Positions 21,700 to 62,242 of a DNA stretch of 64,000 bases are shown one piece after another. How positions within the stretch are numbered: position 1 is the stretch's first letter; every line of letters begins with the position of its first letter. The stretch is from Buchnera aphidicola (Cavariella theobaldi) (GTDB taxonomy: Bacteria; Pseudomonadota; Gammaproteobacteria; Enterobacterales; Enterobacteriaceae). Position numbers and translations under genes: made by a program. The DNA lies in NCBI RefSeq assembly GCF_964059165.1, contig NZ_OZ060413.1:124001-188000 (forward strand). The letters run 5' to 3'. Under the pieces are notes generated by a model. That model did no database searches, was not told where the DNA came from, and was given only the letters and a program-made list of their open reading frames with translations.

Positions 21700-22676
21700 G
21701 TTTTATTCTTTATTGTTATAATGACTAAAGTTGATAGATATGAAGAAAAATTTAATTATTTTATATTTTCAAAGAAAAAATTTTTATTATGTATTTTACA
21801 AAAAATAAATATACTAATAATATTCTGTGGTGTCTAAAATAATGTAATTAAAAATTAATATTAGATATACTTGAGAAGTAGTTACTTAACAAAATATTTA
21901 ATTTTTTTCTACATATATATTATCATTGCACAAAATATTTATATTCAATAACATATTTATAATAAGATAATCGGTAATATTCTTATGTTTTTCTCAATCA
22001 ATTTTCTGTGAATATCTTATAGATAAATTAAAAACATTTAGTCTAATAGTGGAGTTTATAAAAACAATATCTTGATTTTTTGTATGATGCGCATTTTAAT
22101 ATTACAATAGTATAGAAAGTTTATAGACATTGTTTAAAAAAATATATTTTTTCTAAATTTTTGACAGATTAAAATTATTGATTTTTAGTACTAAGACGAA
22201 AGTTTTTTATAAAAATATAAATTTATGTGTAAAGTTTCTTTATTAATAGATATATGATAAAATCTTTTGCGTTCACAGATATAAAAATATTATTCAATTT
22301 AGTAGATAAAGTATAGATAATTTTTGAAAATATGCTTTCTTCTGTATAAGAAATGTTATAAAGCGATGTAAAATAATTTTTTTAAATATTCTAATAGTGA
22401 CAGCTCGGATATTGATTGCTATCATTAGCATATTATATTTTTTACTGATTTGGTGAGATTTATAGAGTTTTTTAATGACGCAAGTTTATATGATATTAAT
22501 ATTGCTTATGATTATTATAAATTAATATTTTTATGTTCGATATACACTGTGTATACATTTTAAAATATTGTTTCTCAGTATAATATGTAAATAATATATT
22601 TTAATAATTTATATTATACTAATAATATTTATTTTTTGTTTTTTTTCAGTTTATTTCTTTTTTAAAAAATTATATT
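21700..22676. other. Gene-free spacer at the ancestral ribF position
   Basis: About 980 nt between divergent ileS and rpsT, close to the length of a ribF gene (~940 nt), which occupies this place in E. coli. No intact frame is present. The longest stop-free stretch I followed on the minus strand, 22294-22485, encodes 63 residues without a convincing FAD-synthase motif; the GNFDG-type nucleotide-binding signature is not seen. I read it as an eroded ribF locus that still carries the ileS and rpsT promoters, but the erosion is inferred from position and length only. Confidence 0.5.
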
Positions 22677-22688
22677 TAGGAGTTACCA

Positions 22689-24158: not shown

Positions 24159-24186
24159 TCTTATTCTTCCTGCTTTTGAAATAAAT

Positions 24187-24217
24187 GCACGGGCGTAGAT
24201 TTTTTCTACGCCCGTGC
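24187..24217 (-). promoter_or_regulatory. GC-rich perfect hairpin between dnaK and dnaJ
   Basis: Perfect 13-bp stem GCACGGGCGTAGA / TCTACGCCCGTGC with a 5-nt loop. It stands out sharply from the surrounding AT-rich DNA. On the dnaKJ transcript no clear U run follows it, so it may act as a processing or stabilising structure or as a leaky terminator that sets the DnaK:DnaJ ratio. The arm bases are directly visible; the role is inferred. Confidence 0.7.
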
Positions 24218-24240
24218 TTGTTTACATACGGTAGTAGTTA

Positions 24241-27671: not shown

Positions 27672-29462
27672 ATGATAGATTTAGTAAAAAATGATTTTCC
27701 TTTAAATACAGAAAAAAAAAGACAAGATCCATTAATACAAAAATTATTTCATGCTTTTGGTAAAGAGTCTGTTACTTTACAAGTAACTCGCACTGGTTTT
27801 CCTATAGTTTGGATAGATGCTTCGTTATTATTAAAAATGGGAAATTTTTTATATACTTTACCCGATCCTTATAATTTTCTTTTTGATTTACATGGTGTAG
27901 ATGAACGTTTACGTGAATTTCGTAATGATTTACCAAAAGCAGATTTTTCAGTTTTTTATCATTTAATATCTGTTAAAAGAAATAATGATATTATGCTTAA
28001 GATACCTTTATTAGAAGATAATTTACATGTCCCGACATTAGTAAGTTTATTTCCTAATGCAAATTGGTATGAACGTGAAACATGGGAAATGTTTGGTATT
28101 TTTTTTGATAAACATCCTAATTTAACTCGTATTATTATGCCACATACATGGCGTGGGCATCCCTTAAGAAAAAATTATTCTGCGCGAGCCACAGAATCCG
28201 AAGCTTTTTTTTTAAATCAAAAAAAAGAAGATTTAGAAATGCGGAGTTTACAATTTAAACCAGAATTATGGGGTATGAAGCGAAGAGATAAAGATGTGGA
28301 TTTTATGTTTTTAAATTTAGGACCTAATCATCCATCTGCCCACGGTGCTTTTAGAATTATATTGCAGTTAGATGGTGAAAAAATTGTAGATTGTGTACCT
28401 GATATTGGATACCACCATCGTGGTGCTGAAAAAATGGCAGAACGGCAAACTTGGCATAGTTATATTCCATATACTGATCGTATAGAATATCTCGGTGGTT
28501 GTGTGAATGAAATGCCATATATATTAGCTATAGAAAAATTATCTGGTATTTGCGTTCCAGAAAAGGTTGAAGTCATTCGAGTCATGTTGTCAGAATTATT
28601 TCGTATTAATAGTCATCTTCTATATATTTCTACTTTTGTACAGGATATAGGTTGTATGACACCAGTTTTTTTAGCTTTTACTGATCGTCAAAAAATTTAT
28701 GATCTAATTGAAGAAATTACTGGAGCTAGAATGCATCCTGCTTGGTTTCGTATTGGTGGTGTAGCTAATGATCTTCCGAAAAGATGGCATTTTTTACTTA
28801 AAGAATTTCTTCAATGGATGCCAAAACGATTAAAATATTATGTTACAGTAGCTCTTAAAAATAGTATTCTTATCAGCCGTTCTAAAGGAGTGGCGTCATA
28901 TAACCAAAAAGATGCAATTAAATGGGGAATTACAGGTGCTGGTTTACGTGCTACTGGTTTAGATTTTGATGTAAGAAAATGGAGACCGTATTCAGGTTAT
29001 AATAATTTTCATTTTGATGTTCCAATAGGTGGAGGTGTTAGTGATGCTTACACAAGAGTAATGATTAAAGTAGAAGAAATTTATCAAAGCCTAATTATTT
29101 TAGAGCAGTGTTTAAAAAATATGCCTAATGGTCCTTTTAAATCTGATCATCCTTTGACAACACCTCCGTTGAAAGATAATACTTTTCAACATATTGATAC
29201 GATGATTACTCATTTTTTACAAGTATCATGGGGCCCGGTTATGCCGGTGAATGAAAGTTTTCAAATGATTGAAGCAACTAAAGGTATTAATAGTTACTAC
29301 TTAATTAGCGATGGTGGTACCATGAGTTACCGTACGAGAATACGAACACCTAGTTTTCCACATTTACAGCAAATACCTTCAGTAATTCGTGGAAGTTTTA
29401 TTTCTGATTTAATCGTATACTTAGGTAGTATAGATTTTGTCATGTCAGACGTGGATAGATAA
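27672..29462 (+). CDS. nuoCD: NADH-quinone oxidoreductase fused subunit C/D
   Basis: The NuoC and NuoD domains are joined in one chain, as in E. coli. It has 596 residues. The NuoC part (about 1-190) includes [14 protein letters not shown]. The NuoD part begins near [18 protein letters not shown] and holds the quinone-site histidine region, [12 protein letters not shown], and the C-terminal block [11 protein letters not shown] ending in the conserved SDVDR. Two nucleotides separate the stop from the ATG at 29465 that I take as the nuoE start. Confidence 0.98.
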
Positions 29463-29464
29463 TA

Positions 29465-29976
29465 ATGTATAAAAAAAAAATCATGATATTAGAGAAATTT
29501 GTACTACATTCACTTTAACGAATGCAGAAAAAAATGAAATAGAAGAACAAAAGAAATATTATGAAAACAATCGAGCTATCTCCATAGAAGCTTTGAAGAT
29601 TGTGCAAAAAAAACGTGGTTGGGTGTCCGATCAGGCTATTTTTGCTATTTCTAAAATATTAAATATTAACCCTAGTGAATTAGAGGGTGTGGCAACTTTT
29701 TATAGTCAAATTTTTCGTCAGCCAATAGGTAATAACATTATTCGTTATTGTGATAGTGTAGTTTGTTATATAACAGGATATAAAAAAATAGAGCGATTTT
29801 TAAAAAATTATTTAAAGATAAGAGCAGGAGAAACAACATTAGATAATAAATTTACTTTATTGCCTGTTTGTTGTTTAGGTGATTGTGATAAAAGTCCAGT
29901 TATCATGATTAATGAAGATACATATTATAATGTTACACCAGAATTAATAATACATATACTGGAATCATATCAATGA
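29465..29976 (+). CDS. nuoE: NADH-quinone oxidoreductase subunit E, frameshift at an A10 tract
   Basis: The 24-kDa-type complex I subunit holding a [2Fe-2S] cluster. Cluster ligands are visible: CDSVVCY and, near the end, CCLGDCD. The body of the protein lies in the frame of 29473-29976. Homology to E. coli NuoE continues upstream of the first TTG, through [19 protein letters not shown], but that frame has no ATG and reaches a stop at 29470. The natural start, ATG at 29465 two bases after nuoCD, is in another frame. A run of exactly ten A (29471-29480) lies between; eleven A would join start and body. The gene is probably functional through slippage at the run. It overlaps nuoF by 4 nt. Confidence 0.88.
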
Positions 29977-31259
29977 AAAAAATTTTGCGTATTCCAGAAA
30001 CTCATCCATTGACATGGCGGTTAAGAGAAGATCAAAAAACTGTATGGATAAAAGAGTATATTAGTAAAAATGGTTATTTTTCTTATCAAAAAACATTAAA
30101 AGAAAAAACTCCAGAAAGTGTTGTATCTATAATTAAAAAATCCGGTTTAAAAGGTCGAGGAGGTGCTGGTTTTTTAACAGGTGTAAAGTGGAGTTTAATG
30201 CTTCAGAATGATTCTGTTAAAACGCGTTATTTATTATGTAATGCAGATGAAATGGAGCCCGGTACATATAAAGATAAATTATTAATAGAGAAAATTCCAC
30301 ATCAATTAATTGAAGGTATTCTATTAAGTGCTTTTGCTTTAAATGTTTCTCGTGCATATATTTTTTTAAGAGGAGAATATATCAAAGCAGAAGAAATATT
30401 AAAGAAGGCTATACAAGAAGCAAGAGATTATGGTTATATCGGATTGCATATTCTAGGCACTGATATTAATTGTGATATAATTGTTCATACTGGAGCTGGT
30501 CGTTATATTTGCGGAGAAGAAACAGCTCTTATTAATTCTTTAGAAGGACGTAGAGCTAATCCTCGATCTAAACCTCCATTTCCTGCAGTTTTTGGTTTAT
30601 GGGGAAAGCCTACCTGTGTCAATAATGTAGAAACTTTGTGTAATATTCCAGCGATTTTATTATATGGTGTAAGATGGTATAAAAATTTATCTAATAGTAT
30701 TGATTCTGGTACAAAATTAATGGGTTTTTCAGGTCATGTTAATAATCCTGGTTTATGGGAAGTACCCTTTGGTATTACCGCGCGTGAAATTTTAGAAGAT
30801 TATGCTGGCGGTATGAAAAAAGGTATGGTATTAAAAGCTTGGCAACCAGGTGGCGCGGGAACTGGATTTTTAACTCATGATCATTTAGATGTATCAATGG
30901 ATTTTGATAGTATTAATAAAATAGGTAGTCGTTTAGGTACGGGTATTGCCATGGCTGTAGATCAACATATTAATATGGTATCTTTGGTATATAATCTTGA
31001 AGTTTTTTTTTCGCGCGAATCATGTGGTTTATGTACTCCTTGTAGAGAGGGGTTGCCTTGGATTGTAAAAATATTAAAAACATTAAAAAATAATATAGGA
31101 AAAGAAAATGATATAAAAATTTTAGAGAGATTATGTATTAGTTTAGGAATAGGAAAAACATTTTGTGCTCATGCACCGGGAGCAATAGCGCCTTTATATA
31201 GTGCAATTAAATATTTTCGTTCAGAATTTGAAGCGGGTATTAAGATGTATGATAAATAA
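29973..31259 (+). CDS. nuoF: NADH-quinone oxidoreductase subunit F
   Basis: Binds NADH and FMN and carries iron-sulfur cluster N3, the electron entry point of complex I. It has 428 residues (445 in E. coli). The glycine-rich nucleotide site [14 protein letters not shown] lies near residue 60, [13 protein letters not shown] near 90, and the FMN/NADH block [22 protein letters not shown] mid-protein. The [4Fe-4S] cysteines are in [12 protein letters not shown] near residue 350. Its ATG overlaps the nuoE stop (ATGA), so the two are translationally coupled. Confidence 0.98.
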
Positions 31260-42387: not shown

Positions 42388-42585
42388 TACGGTTATTGTA
42401 TAATAATTTTTATATAAAGTCATATTATGTATTTTTTGATATATAAACAAAATAGTATGTACAATAAAAATTATTTTTTATGATAAAAAATATTAAAATA
42501 TGTTAGGAAATATATTATGTTGAATATTTTGAATATGATACTTTTAGATACGTGGTTAAAGACAGTGCGTGTCAAATTTTTTTAG
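42388..42585. other. AT-rich spacer after the alx-type gene
   Basis: About 200 nt of AT-rich sequence with no recognisable gene. It begins a 1.24-kb gene-free interval that runs to prs at 43627; the next two entries describe degraded open stretches inside that interval. Confidence 0.5.
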
Positions 42586-42768
42586 AGCGGCTATGTTGGT
42601 AGAATAAATAGAAAATCAACGATTGATAGAATTTTAGAAAAATTATTTTTCAATTTTGAGTATATAATTATTTTTTATATTTTATCTTATATCATGTGTT
42701 ATTTGAAAAATATTACAATTCATGGTATTTTTTGTAAAATATATTATATTTCTTTTTTTGATCTTTAA
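42586..42768 (+). pseudogene. Possible cvpA remnant
   Basis: A 60-codon stop-free stretch without a start codon. Its first part contains the words STIDRILEKLF followed by a hydrophobic run, resembling the CvpA (colicin V production) segment G-T-D-R-V-L-G-x-x-F-G and the membrane helix behind it. From memory of other Buchnera chromosomes, cvpA lies between nuoN and prs, which would fit, but the match is short. Low confidence; it could be chance. Confidence 0.25.
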
Positions 42769-42781
42769 AAACGAGATTTTT

Positions 42782-43303
42782 AATAATCAGTTATTATATA
42801 TTAAAATTTTTTGTATAAATTTTTATTTTAATAACTCTATTAGATATTTTATATTATTAATCGGTATCGGTTTTGAATTATATTTTTATAAATATTTTTA
42901 AATGCTAATTAATCCATCATTTCTAATATCAGGATAAAACATTATTGTTTTTGAGATGGTATTGATTAAGAATTTCAAAAAAATACGATATTTCATATCT
43001 GGTAGTATTTCTATAATCGGAATCACTCATATTCTAATCTGTATCAATACAGTAGTGAAAATATAAAAATGAATTGACAATAACCTTGTCCATGGTTCAA
43101 TATCTAGAATAACATACATACACTACAACAAATATTATGAGCAATTACTTTATTGTTTTACTATTTTAATACAGAAATACTATATTGTTTATCCGCATCT
43201 TGATTTTATTTCAGATATAGAACAAGGATTGTGTCTAGATGTCGTATTATATTTTTTAAAAAAATTAAAAAATAAAGGTATTTCCGATATTTTATTTTTT
43301 TAG
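42782..43303 (+). pseudogene. Degraded unidentified coding stretch
   Basis: One frame (third position of 42782) stays open over most of 520 nt, with stops only at 42899, 42935, 43064, 43070 and 43301. The last part, 43073-43303, is 76 codons long without a start. It reads like normal protein, with words such as VHGSISRITYIHYNKYYEQ and DIEQGLCLDVVLYFLKKL. Adding one T to the T run at the final stop would extend the frame through EYLNDSQWSCV to about 43338. I cannot name the family. The pattern fits a gene lost recently enough to keep its frame. Confidence 0.4.
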
Positions 43304-43573
43304 AATATTTGAACGATTCTCAGTGGTCATGTGTTTAAAAATTTTTGTATTTATAAAATATAGAAATATAAAATACTTATCTCCACGCAGTATTTTTTTA
43401 GTTTAAAATATCTATTTTTTAGAAAATAATAAAAAAATTTATTATTAGTATATTTTTTTAATTGTATCTGGAAGGATGATATTAAAAATAAAATATCGAT
43501 ATAATATATAACAATAGAAAAATTTTTTTAAAACAGCTAAAATCATATATTAATAAAATTATTTTTTTATTAA

Positions 43574-43618
43574 CTAAGCACATGATAATTTCTTTAATAA
43601 ATATTACATTGTGCTTAG
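43574..43618 (-). terminator. Hairpin downstream of prs
   Basis: Perfect 9-bp inverted repeat CTAAGCACA / TGTGCTTAG at 43574-43582 and 43610-43618 with a 27-nt loop, 9 nt beyond the prs stop. It is comparatively GC-containing for this region. No clean U run follows on the prs strand, so it may stabilise the mRNA end rather than terminate by itself. Confidence 0.4.
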
Positions 43619-43626
43619 TATAATAT

Positions 43627-46907: not shown

Positions 46908-47069
46908 TTAATTGATATTGCTGTTATTACGTACAATATATAGATAATGCGATGTGTTTGTAATAAAGAATATAGTTATATATTTTTTATAAAAGGTATA
47001 TTCCTATATATAATTATTAATAACATTTTTATTTTTAATCATCTAAATAATATTAATATTGCTAATAAT

Positions 47070-47879
47070 ATGAAATCTGTTGCTAATATTGATTTTTCCA
47101 AACTATCACTTTTTGATTCCATTCTTGCAACTTCTCAAATTATACGAGAAGATTTTCCAGCGGAATGTGTTTTGTTAGAATTAAATGCTAAAGTACAAGA
47201 AGCAAAATCTTATATTTCTTCTGAAAATCAACCTAATCGACAATTAAAAAAATTATTAGAATTGTTTTATAAGCATTGGCATTTTGGTAGTGCAAGTGGT
47301 GTATATAAATTGTCCAATGTTCTTTGGATTGATCACGTGTTAAAAACGCGTCAAGGTACTGCGGTGTCTTTAGGTGTTCTTTTTTTATATATTGCACAAT
47401 CATTACATTTACCATTAAATCCAGTTATATTTCCAACGCAATTCCTTTTAAGAGCGGATTGGATGAATAAAAAAAAATGGTTAATTAATCCTTTTAATGG
47501 AGAAATTGTAAATAAACATATATTACAAGTGTGGTTAAAAGGCAACATTAGCCCAACTGCAAAATTATATGAAAGCGATTTATATAAATCTGAGCCTATC
47601 ACTGTAATTCGTAAAATGCTTGATATATTAAAATCTGCATTAATAGAGGAAAAAAAAATGGAATTAGCATTAAATGTAATTAATGTACTATTACAAATTG
47701 ATCCGAATAATCCGTATGAAATTCGTGATAGAGGATTAATATATGCACAATTAAAATGTCATCATGTTGCTATAACAGATTTAATTTATTTTATTGAACA
47801 CTGTCCAGAAGATCCTATTAGTGAAATAATTAAATTACAAATTCATTCTATTGAACAAAAAAAAATTATTTTACATTAA
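47070..47879 (+). CDS. sirB1: SirB1/YchA family protein (transglutaminase-like plus TPR-like)
   Basis: The homologue of E. coli YchA/SirB1, which sits next to prmC in the same prfA-prmC-ychA order; its biochemical role is unsettled. From this ATG it has 269 residues, exactly the E. coli length, and KLSLFDSILATSQIIREDFP aligns with the E. coli N-terminus. KTRQGTAVSLGVLFLYIAQ, VIFPTQFLLR and NPFNGE form the transglutaminase-like part. The C-terminal ~80 residues (DPNNPYEIRDRGLIYAQLKC) are TPR-like. The frame stays open to an ATG at 46947, adding 41 hydrophobic residues with no counterpart in E. coli. Neither start has a good ribosome-binding site. Confidence 0.85.
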   Translation: MKSVANIDFSKLSLFDSILATSQIIREDFPAECVLLELNAKVQEAKSYISSENQPNRQLKKLLELFYKHWHFGSASGVYKLSNVLWIDHVLKTRQGTAVSLGVLFLYIAQSLHLPLNPVIFPTQFLLRADWMNKKKWLINPFNGEIVNKHILQVWLKGNISPTAKLYESDLYKSEPITVIRKMLDILKSALIEEKKMELALNVINVLLQIDPNNPYEIRDRGLIYAQLKCHHVAITDLIYFIEHCPEDPISEIIKLQIHSIEQKKIILH

Positions 47880-52267: not shown

Positions 52268-52561
52268 TTATATACTAATTATTATATTTCCTTTAGGCTG
52301 ACAAAAACATGGAAAAATATCATTTTTATTATGCATAGAAGCAATTGGTTTTTGTTGGAGATAACATATTTCGCCCTGTAATAGCTGTATACGACATGTA
52401 CCACAATATCCAGAACAGCATTGATATTCTATATATATTTTATTAAATTTTAAAATTAATAATAATGAATTATAATTTTGATTATAAAATATTTTTTTTT
52501 TATAATTTACTATATATATAGTAAAATTATTTTTTTTATAATTGAAAGTATTTAAATTCAT
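52268..52561 (-). CDS. yfaE: [2Fe-2S] ferredoxin YfaE
   Basis: A small ferredoxin that helps build and maintain the diferric-tyrosyl radical cofactor of NrdB in E. coli. It has 97 residues (84 in E. coli). The cluster cysteines are in [13 protein letters not shown] and in the late FPCFCQPKG. The only ATG lies inside the end of nrdB, giving a 26-nt overlap and about 11 extra N-terminal residues compared with E. coli. It is the third gene of nrdA-nrdB-yfaE, the E. coli order. Confidence 0.93.
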
Positions 52562-53666
52562 CGTCAGATACTTCCGAATTAAATTGTCCTACTAAATATG
52601 AGCTAATTTCTGTTTCTTGAGGAGCTGTTTGTATATTATCAGAAGTTAACCAATCATTAATCCAAGGAATTGGATTGGCTTGTTTTTTAAAAGGCGATAC
52701 AAAACCCAACGCATTCATTCGCAGAGTTGTAATATATTCGATATATTGACATAAAATCTCTGTATTCAATCCAATAATAGAACCATTTTTAAATAAATAT
52801 TTAGCCCATGTTTTTTCTTGTTGTGCAGCAGTAATAAATATGTGATAAGCTTCTTCTTTACATTCCAATACAATATCTTTCATATTTTCATTATTATTAA
52901 TACTATTAAAAGTATTTAAAATATGTTGAGTACCTGTTAAATGCAATGCTTCATCCCGCGCTATTAATCTAATAATTTTAGCATTACCTTCCATTAATTT
53001 TCTTTCAGCGAATGCAAAAGAGCATGCAAAACTTACATAAAATCTAATAGCCTCTAAAACATTTACACTAATAAGACAAAGATATAATTTTTTTTTTAAT
53101 AATTTTAAATCAACGTATAGAGGTTGTTTATTAATTAAGTGAGTTCCTTCACCTAATAAATGCCAGTAATTTGTTGCTTCAATAAGTTGATCGTAATAAA
53201 TAGAAATATCTTGTGTACGATTAGTAATGTTAATATTTGAAATAATATCGTCAAATATAATAGCTGGAGTGTTAACGATATTCCTAATAATATGAGTATA
53301 TGAACGTGAATGAATAGTTTCGGAAAAAGACCATGTTTCAACCCATGTTTCTAGTTCTGGTAGAGATATAATTGGTAAAAAAGCAATATTGGGACTTCTT
53401 CCTTGAATTGAATCAAGTAGGGTTTGGTATTTTAAATTACTAACAAAAATATGTTTTTCGGATGGAGATAAATTATTAAAATCCATTCTATCTCTGGATA
53501 GATCTATCTCTTCTGGTCGCCAGAAAAATGATAGTTGTTTTTCAATAAGTTTTTCAAAAACATAGTATTTTTGTTGATCATATCTAGCTATATTGACCGA
53601 TTGTCCAAAAAACATGGGTTCATTTAGTTGATTATTCTTTTTTTTTGAGAATGTTGTGTAAACCAT
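52536..53666 (-). CDS. nrdB: Ribonucleoside-diphosphate reductase class Ia beta subunit
   Basis: Houses the diiron-tyrosyl radical that drives ribonucleotide reduction. It has 376 residues, the same as E. coli. Metal-ligand helices are visible: [21 protein letters not shown] with a Glu and a His, [19 protein letters not shown] and [15 protein letters not shown]. The radical tyrosine lies in the first helix pair. The C-terminal tail, which docks to NrdA, ends [10 protein letters not shown]. It starts 57 nt downstream of nrdA. Confidence 0.98.
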
Positions 53667-61637: not shown

Positions 61638-61882
61638 ATGCGTACCAGATAAAATATGAAGTAGAAATTAATTACGTATTTTATAATTATTATATGAAGA
61701 ATATAATATTTTTTTATTTTTAATATTGTAGGTTTTTAAAAAGTAAGAAGTGCAGTTTTTAATATAATCTTTTTTTTAAGGATTTTTTTATTTTGAAATG
61801 ATTTCTATAGAACGTTTAATTTTTTTAAATAGAAAATAAAGAAATACTAATTTTTTTTGCATATCTTTTAGGCGAATATATT

Positions 61883-62242
61883 GGAGCTGGCGGGATTCGA
61901 ACCCGCGTCCAAAATTTCTACGAATACAGTACTACATGCTTAGTTTTTCTAAATACATTTCCTCGTTTAATTTGGAAAAACACATTATAAACGTATAGCT
62001 TGAATAAAATCATACATAACCGTCAAGCTTGGTATATGCATTTTCTCTTTTTTTGACCTTCCTTTATTCTCGTCCTAAGAGAGGAGGCTGAGAAGGAAGG
62101 GCTTTAAAACGGGTTTTTAAGCCGCTAAAGCGTAGTGTTGTTTATGATTTGCAGCTATTTTTTTTCGGTTTTTATCGAGGCAAACCGTTCCTCGGCATGC
62201 ACTGTATTTTTTGATAATTTTGTCAAATCCAAAAACAGCCCC
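61883..62242 (-). ncRNA. ssrA: tmRNA (trans-translation RNA)
   Basis: Rescues stalled ribosomes and tags the unfinished protein. It is about 360 nt long (363 in E. coli). The 5' end GGGGCTG pairs with CAGCTCC near the 3' end to form the tRNA-Ala-like acceptor stem with its G-U pair, and the T arm reads GGTTCGAATCCCGCC. The tag frame begins at the GCA codon 62150-62152 and ends at the TAA 62117-62119. It encodes ANHKQHYALAA, with the standard YALAA end recognised by proteases. The CCA tail is not encoded: the DNA after the discriminator A reads AT. Neighbours are grpE downstream and divergent grxD. Confidence 0.97.

Follow-up and report, generated by a model that had tools for sequence, protein, structure and literature searches.

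In Buchnera aphidicola (Cavariella theobaldi) the gene for the complex I subunit NuoE is intact apart from one frame change at a homopolymer, as follows from its layout, the open reading frames (ORFs), the model matches and the comparison with its relatives, i.e. the ATG found where nuoE is expected to begin lies in a different frame from the body of the gene, and a run of ten A separates the two. This frameshift is old and maintained, and it is common to the genus rather than particular to this genome. Based on the sequence comparisons we consider it likely that NuoE is started at this ATG and that the frame changes at the A-run, via either the polymerase or the ribosome, slippage of RNA polymerase appearing somewhat favoured over the ribosomal route; production of NuoE would then probably need slippage at the run. 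The window, i.e. the whole stretch of DNA that was analysed, comprises 64,000 nucleotides (positions 124,001 to 188,000 of contig NZ_OZ060413.1), and the features at the nuoCD-nuoE-nuoF junction are as follows.

27672-29462, plus strand: nuoCD (ORF list and sequence; NF008728 with 1095 bits against a cut-off of 840)
29460-29462, plus strand: TAA stop codon of nuoCD, two bases ahead of the nuoE ATG
29465-29467, plus strand: ATG, proposed nuoE start codon, in a different frame from the body (sequence and comparison)
29465-29518, plus strand: reading in the frame of the ATG, 17 codons followed by TAA at 29516-29518; the product expected if the frame is not corrected
29470-29472, plus strand: TAA in the body frame, adjoining the A-run on its 5' side and barring upstream starts in that frame
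29471-29480, plus strand: run of ten A (A10), codons 3-5, proposed site of frame correction
29473-29976, plus strand: body frame of nuoE, 167 codons and TGA (NF005722, TIGR01958, PF01257)
29497-29499, plus strand: ATT, codon of the body frame and rival non-AUG start; ATT in 35 of 36 genomes, ATC in one
29973-31259, plus strand: nuoF, whose ATG overlaps the nuoE TGA (ATGA) (ORF list and model matches)

The stop codon of nuoCD is followed by two bases, the ATG, TAT and the ten A, which place the slippery heptamer A AAA AAA in the register of the ATG frame, and a single added A would join this frame to the body of nuoE. The body frame is free of stops from 29473 to 29973 and exceeds the cut-off of the NuoE equivalog model NF005722 (227 bits versus 141). 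Its earliest ATG, GTG or TTG is the TTG at 29593, 40 residues in, whereas the alignment to the solved NuoE 7awt_E, which we take to be the E. coli protein, already starts at body residue 11. The twelve other nuo ORFs are all open; eleven of them match nuo models, the nuoN match lying below the cut-offs, and nuoA, without a model match at E 1e-20, owes its name to its position. ATGA overlaps often imply translational coupling, and as the ATG of nuoF is located inside the nuoE stop in all 36 genomes of the genus, the overlap suggests that translation of nuoF is coupled to that of nuoE. The first-pass annotation, made from the letters of the window, had described the ATG two bases past nuoCD, the A10 and the body in another frame, NuoE homology upstream of any usable start, the fusion of both frames by one extra A, the nuoF start at the nuoE stop, and an otherwise intact operon; all of this agrees with the sequence.

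The genus sample consists of 36 genomes, and nuoE was found in every one of them. An ATG is situated 1-4 nt past the nuoCD stop in all 36 (2 nt in 33 genomes) and is always followed by an A-run of at least nine (A9 in 26 genomes, A10 in seven, and A11, A12 and A13 in one each). In 34 of the 36 this ATG and the nuoE body stand in different frames, and the offset is identical throughout: ATG and nuoE stop are 506 nt apart in 33 genomes and 509 nt, i.e. one codon more, in the present one. The out-of-frame runs of A10 to A12 at a length of 506 nt result from base changes with no net insertion. The two genomes with another offset, G001 (L029, 504 nt, A13) and G005 (L144, 501 nt, A9), read in frame from the same ATG, which supports this ATG as the start. 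An alignment of the tract across Buchnera strains had been proposed in the first-pass annotation, which regarded rescue by slippage as likely in this strain; the conserved ATG, A-run and offset do favour frame correction, but the interruption turned out to be genus-wide and not strain-specific.

Conservation is concentrated on the ATG and the run. On a tree of the 33 equal-length genomes, with 3.5 changes per residue in total, not one change falls on the three bases of the ATG or on nine A positions, as compared to 13 at the first base of codon 2. Among aligned A or T runs of at least nine elsewhere in nuoCD, nuoE and nuoF none is shared by more than 12 of the 36 genomes; one A8 inside nuoE is retained in 25. 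AAG makes up 216 of the 2719 Lys codons of nuoCD, nuoE and nuoF, and 5 of 31 conserved Lys columns lack it; three AAG-free Lys columns in a row are thus unusual, though not decisive. The T directly before the run is present in 32 of the 33 equal-length genomes, and, together with the TAA that adjoins the run, it rules out a start in the body frame further upstream; in L006, the one genome without this T, a TTG lies 28 nt ahead of the ATG. An internal ATG, GTG or TTG shared by the genus can be discarded as well, as none is common: in the interval from -40 to +70 around the nuoCD stop, a start codon occurs in 10 of the 34 genomes that are out of frame, at -28 (one genome), +20 (two), +44 (three) and +47 (four) relative to the ATG. 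Codon 2 (29468-29470) shows a pattern of its own, its first base being T, C, A or G, followed by a purine and T in 32 of the 33 genomes, with no evident amino-acid reason.

Further downstream, the stretch from +32 to +91 is clearly under coding constraint, with 52 synonymous and 83 nonsynonymous changes, i.e. a synonymous fraction of 0.39 versus about 0.18 expected, and the five codons between the A-run and the ATT, read in the body frame, show 6 synonymous and 42 nonsynonymous changes and hence no synonymous excess (0.12 versus about 0.17 expected), the expected fractions in both cases depending on mutation weights that we chose. This unconstrained stretch fits a free N-terminal tail and an untranslated stretch alike; since homology to the solved NuoE begins only at body residue 11, a free tail is to be expected under either start. 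The upstream side of the A-run consists solely of the start codon, codon 2 and the run itself.

Outside the genus the arrangement is different. We examined 110 loci of other Enterobacterales (80 named loci, the best of 525 found outside the genus, and 30 loci of the family search, the best of 360 matching genomes); the first ATG after nuoCD is in frame in all of them, and no A9 occurs within 45 nt in any of these 110. We also compared 60 reduced symbionts of other genera, selected by hand on the size of their genomes. In 59 of them ATG, GTG or TTG occurs in frame close to the end of nuoCD, in 50 the first ATG itself is in frame, and in 7 a run of nine or more A lies within 45 nt of the nuoCD stop. 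The remaining one, L203 (G346), seems to be shifted separately, after a GTG start, at an A-run within nuoE (approximately 1490-1505); it belongs to another genus and is independent of the Buchnera case. On a tree of all 96 genomes (36 of the genus and 60 symbionts), a quick tree with a long-branch warning for L174 and L156, both outside the genus, the genus groups together and three state changes are needed, which may be read as one gain and two losses; its well-supported branches force at least two changes. On the tree within the genus two changes account for the two in-frame genomes. A search of plasmids for the nuoE site gave no match. A stretch of the second contig of the present genome is 77% identical over 99% to a leuA/repA plasmid of Buchnera from Diuraphis noxia, in agreement with the assignment to Buchnera.

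We propose that the genus acquired the out-of-frame state a single time, ahead of its diversification, and has retained it since, apart from two returns to an in-frame start. Translation would be initiated at the ATG at 29465, the position used in other Enterobacterales, and most probably RNA polymerase adds one A to a fraction of the transcripts and/or the ribosome slips back by one base on AAA, either route leading to an identical fused protein, which would comprise 170 residues in the present genome. If the frame is not corrected, a peptide of 17 residues would result, and ribosomes that keep the frame of the ATG would halt after 17 codons, about 450 bases ahead of nuoF. As nuoF starts within the nuoE stop, the efficiency of correction would set the output of NuoE and, if nuoF depends on coupling, that of NuoF as well. 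One observation counts against a simple rescue: repair would take a one-base insertion, yet only 2 of the 36 genomes are in frame, which such a rescue leaves unexplained. The rarity of repair may mean either that correction is nearly complete or that a reduced output is favoured.

As to the agent of the correction, published data on related systems, cited here from the accessible parts of the papers, point in both directions. Corrected frames were found in 12-50% of the transcripts from frameshifted genes of aphid and ant symbionts (PMC5009743), and in Buchnera transcripts insertions increase exponentially with the length of the run (PMC5574713). CirSeq of Buchnera LSR1 gave zero frame-restoring transcription errors, where the nuoE run may fall outside the annotated gene (PMC5574713). 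Recoding by the ribosome alone on a homogeneous mRNA, i.e. a -1 slip or sliding on AAA after initiation, is a branch of the explanation that we prefer and shares part of its probability; taken by itself it appears possible, if on the doubtful side. The heptamer A AAA AAA stands in register just past the start, and sliding has been observed on short AUG-AAA messages in the reconstituted E. coli system, where A11 gave robust sliding, however, and A9-A10 little (PMC4363877). Moreover, an internal Shine-Dalgarno stimulator was not seen by eye, and downstream structure is not conserved: in 33 genomes there is no consensus RNA fold over +15 to +105, which speaks against a canonical -1 frameshift cassette with a stimulatory structure. 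The fold of the present genome (-20.3 kcal/mol, z -1.35) is ordinary, as 52 of 300 random stretches of the window fold as well, and a weak hairpin upstream of the ATG (-0.63) is not better than column shuffles.

NuoE might instead be started at a non-AUG codon, the ATT at 29497 (AUU) or another non-standard codon, with the ATG and the A-run serving as a leader or translation enhancer. Such a start would leave the alignment with the solved NuoE complete, as this begins at body residue 11, the codons between the A-run and the ATT are without purifying selection, and the ATT is found in 35 of the 36 genomes; the only one that deviates, L029 with ATC, is among the two that are in frame. This conservation is ordinary, however, for 14 of 47 conserved Ile columns, including this one, use a single codon in at least 97%, and the invariant ATG and A9 would be left unaccounted for. 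In addition, both genomes that left the common offset read in frame from the ATG, and the stop in the frame of the ATG varies from codon 6 to codon 17 among the 34 out-of-frame genomes, so that there is no constant spacing for a stop and restart. A start at AUU is therefore improbable, and the varying position of the stop likewise excludes a conserved leader peptide.

Two further alternatives place the cause in the DNA or in its reading. Buchnera is polyploid with many genome copies per cell, and a minority of these might carry a run of in-frame length. Indels in long A-runs commonly disrupt Buchnera genes, as stated in the accessible part of PMC3164680, but drifting mixtures would hardly give 34 of 36 assemblies in an identical state, and we regard this alternative as very improbable. 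A-runs are also prone to sequencing errors, and an error of sequencing or assembly, or else a recent inactivating mutation of nuoE in this strain, has to be considered. That 34 of 36 genomes share the offset renders a sequence error very unlikely and the state an inherited one, and with a conserved nuoE body and no interruption in the other nuo ORFs, the probability of either is practically negligible.

Slippage-corrected poly(A) frameshifts and ancient, maintained frameshifts are both established phenomena, among which nuoE stands out by its spread through the genus, by the place of the shift and by the gene affected. Correction of poly(A) frameshifts by slippage is known from Buchnera and Blochmannia (Tamas et al. 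2008, PNAS, as referred to in the available text of PMC5009743 and PMC3017870). Like nuoE, these cases combine an AT-rich insect symbiont, an intact gene, a long A-run at the shift and a frame restored by one base; the aphid-symbiont cases named in the portions at hand are cell-wall genes, whereas here a complex I gene is affected beside its start codon in 34 of 36 genomes. For those cases mixtures of transcripts were reported (PMC5009743, in part). Homopolymer frameshifts in Buchnera are mostly limited to single genomes, according to the accessible part of PMC3164680. Ancient homopolymer frameshifts kept by selection were described by Wernegreen, Kauppinen and Degnan (2010, MBE), cited for Blochmannia in the source excerpts; nuoE resembles these in that several species have the frameshift in common and the gene has not decayed, but it is a Buchnera gene, shifted at codons 3-5 and overlapping the next gene. 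An identical offset in several species, which marks an ancient maintained frameshift, is what the 34 genomes display. In prfB, the gene for RF2, the ribosome shifts +1 at an in-frame stop and expression is autoregulated, whereas the shift in nuoE would occur at the A-run. What the two genes have in common is a frameshift that is widely conserved, lies early in the ORF and is required, or would be required, for the full-length protein (for prfB see PMC12421855, in part). The dnaX gene of Thermus thermophilus also contains an A9 run, and its mRNAs are of mixed length (PMC1088944, accessible part); there, however, the genomic frame encodes the full-length protein and slippage yields the short form, whereas in nuoE it is the long form that would depend on slippage. 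In the open-licence literature we found no report of a genus-wide frameshift at the nuoE start codon: nuoE is not mentioned in PMC5574713, PMC3164680, PMC3711429 and PMC3890641, 'nuo' is absent from PMC4389277 and PMC10851558, and the combination of Buchnera, nuoE and frameshift returned only a Wolbachia paper whose available text names nuoE once, in an unrelated context (PMC3616963).

Homopolymer frameshifts in symbionts are usually taken for recent inactivation; the out-of-frame start of nuoE, in contrast, appears to be stable in the genus. It is conceivable, but rather uncertain, that the arrangement is a selected dosage valve, in which slippage at an A9 beside the start codon limits NuoE and, via the ATGA overlap, NuoF. 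If so, two subunits of the NADH-oxidising module would be produced at a fixed fraction of the level of the other complex I subunits, and the in-frame form, only one base away, would have been disfavoured throughout the diversification of the genus. The gene nuoE offers a testable case of recoding as normal, perhaps even regulatory, gene expression in a reduced genome, with the in-frame genomes G001 and G005 as natural controls. If NuoE is indeed started at the ATG and corrected at the run, automated annotation of nuoE in the genus would tend to truncate the gene or to assign an artificial start.

Within the window nuoE stands alone. In a scan of 50 ORFs, each conserved in four or all of five relatives, it is the only one with conserved coding sequence of at least 13 residues upstream of any start both in the window (39 residues) and in the five relatives (13 to 143). 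The same scan flagged nuoM, with 8-11 residues in the window and 3-11 in the relatives, which we take as spill of the alignment 5' of its ATG, and three ORFs on one side, i.e. 3-1901 (cut by the window edge), 52268-52588 (window only) and 46944-47879 (relatives only). A second poly(A)-interrupted gene, claimed in the first-pass annotation, did not emerge from a two-frame scan of the window with the ORFs of five relatives, the thresholds of which can miss decayed genes. In the genome the motif ATGNRTA9 occurs at 6 places as compared to 1 for the backward control, and of the four sites that can be read forward nuoE alone has this look, as judged by eye. Two regions of the window, 21703-22679 and 42388-43626, span about 1 kb each without conserved ORFs and show weak matches to ORFs of the relatives; they are possibly eroded genes. 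Another ORF-poor stretch is mostly accounted for by a tmRNA gene (61879-62242, minus strand) that is flanked by grpE and the gene for a Grx4-type glutaredoxin and has the tag ANHKQHYALAA, and a match to the tpke11 sRNA family (24160-24233, minus strand; 55.8 bits against a cut-off of 43) is located beside a dnaK-like ORF.
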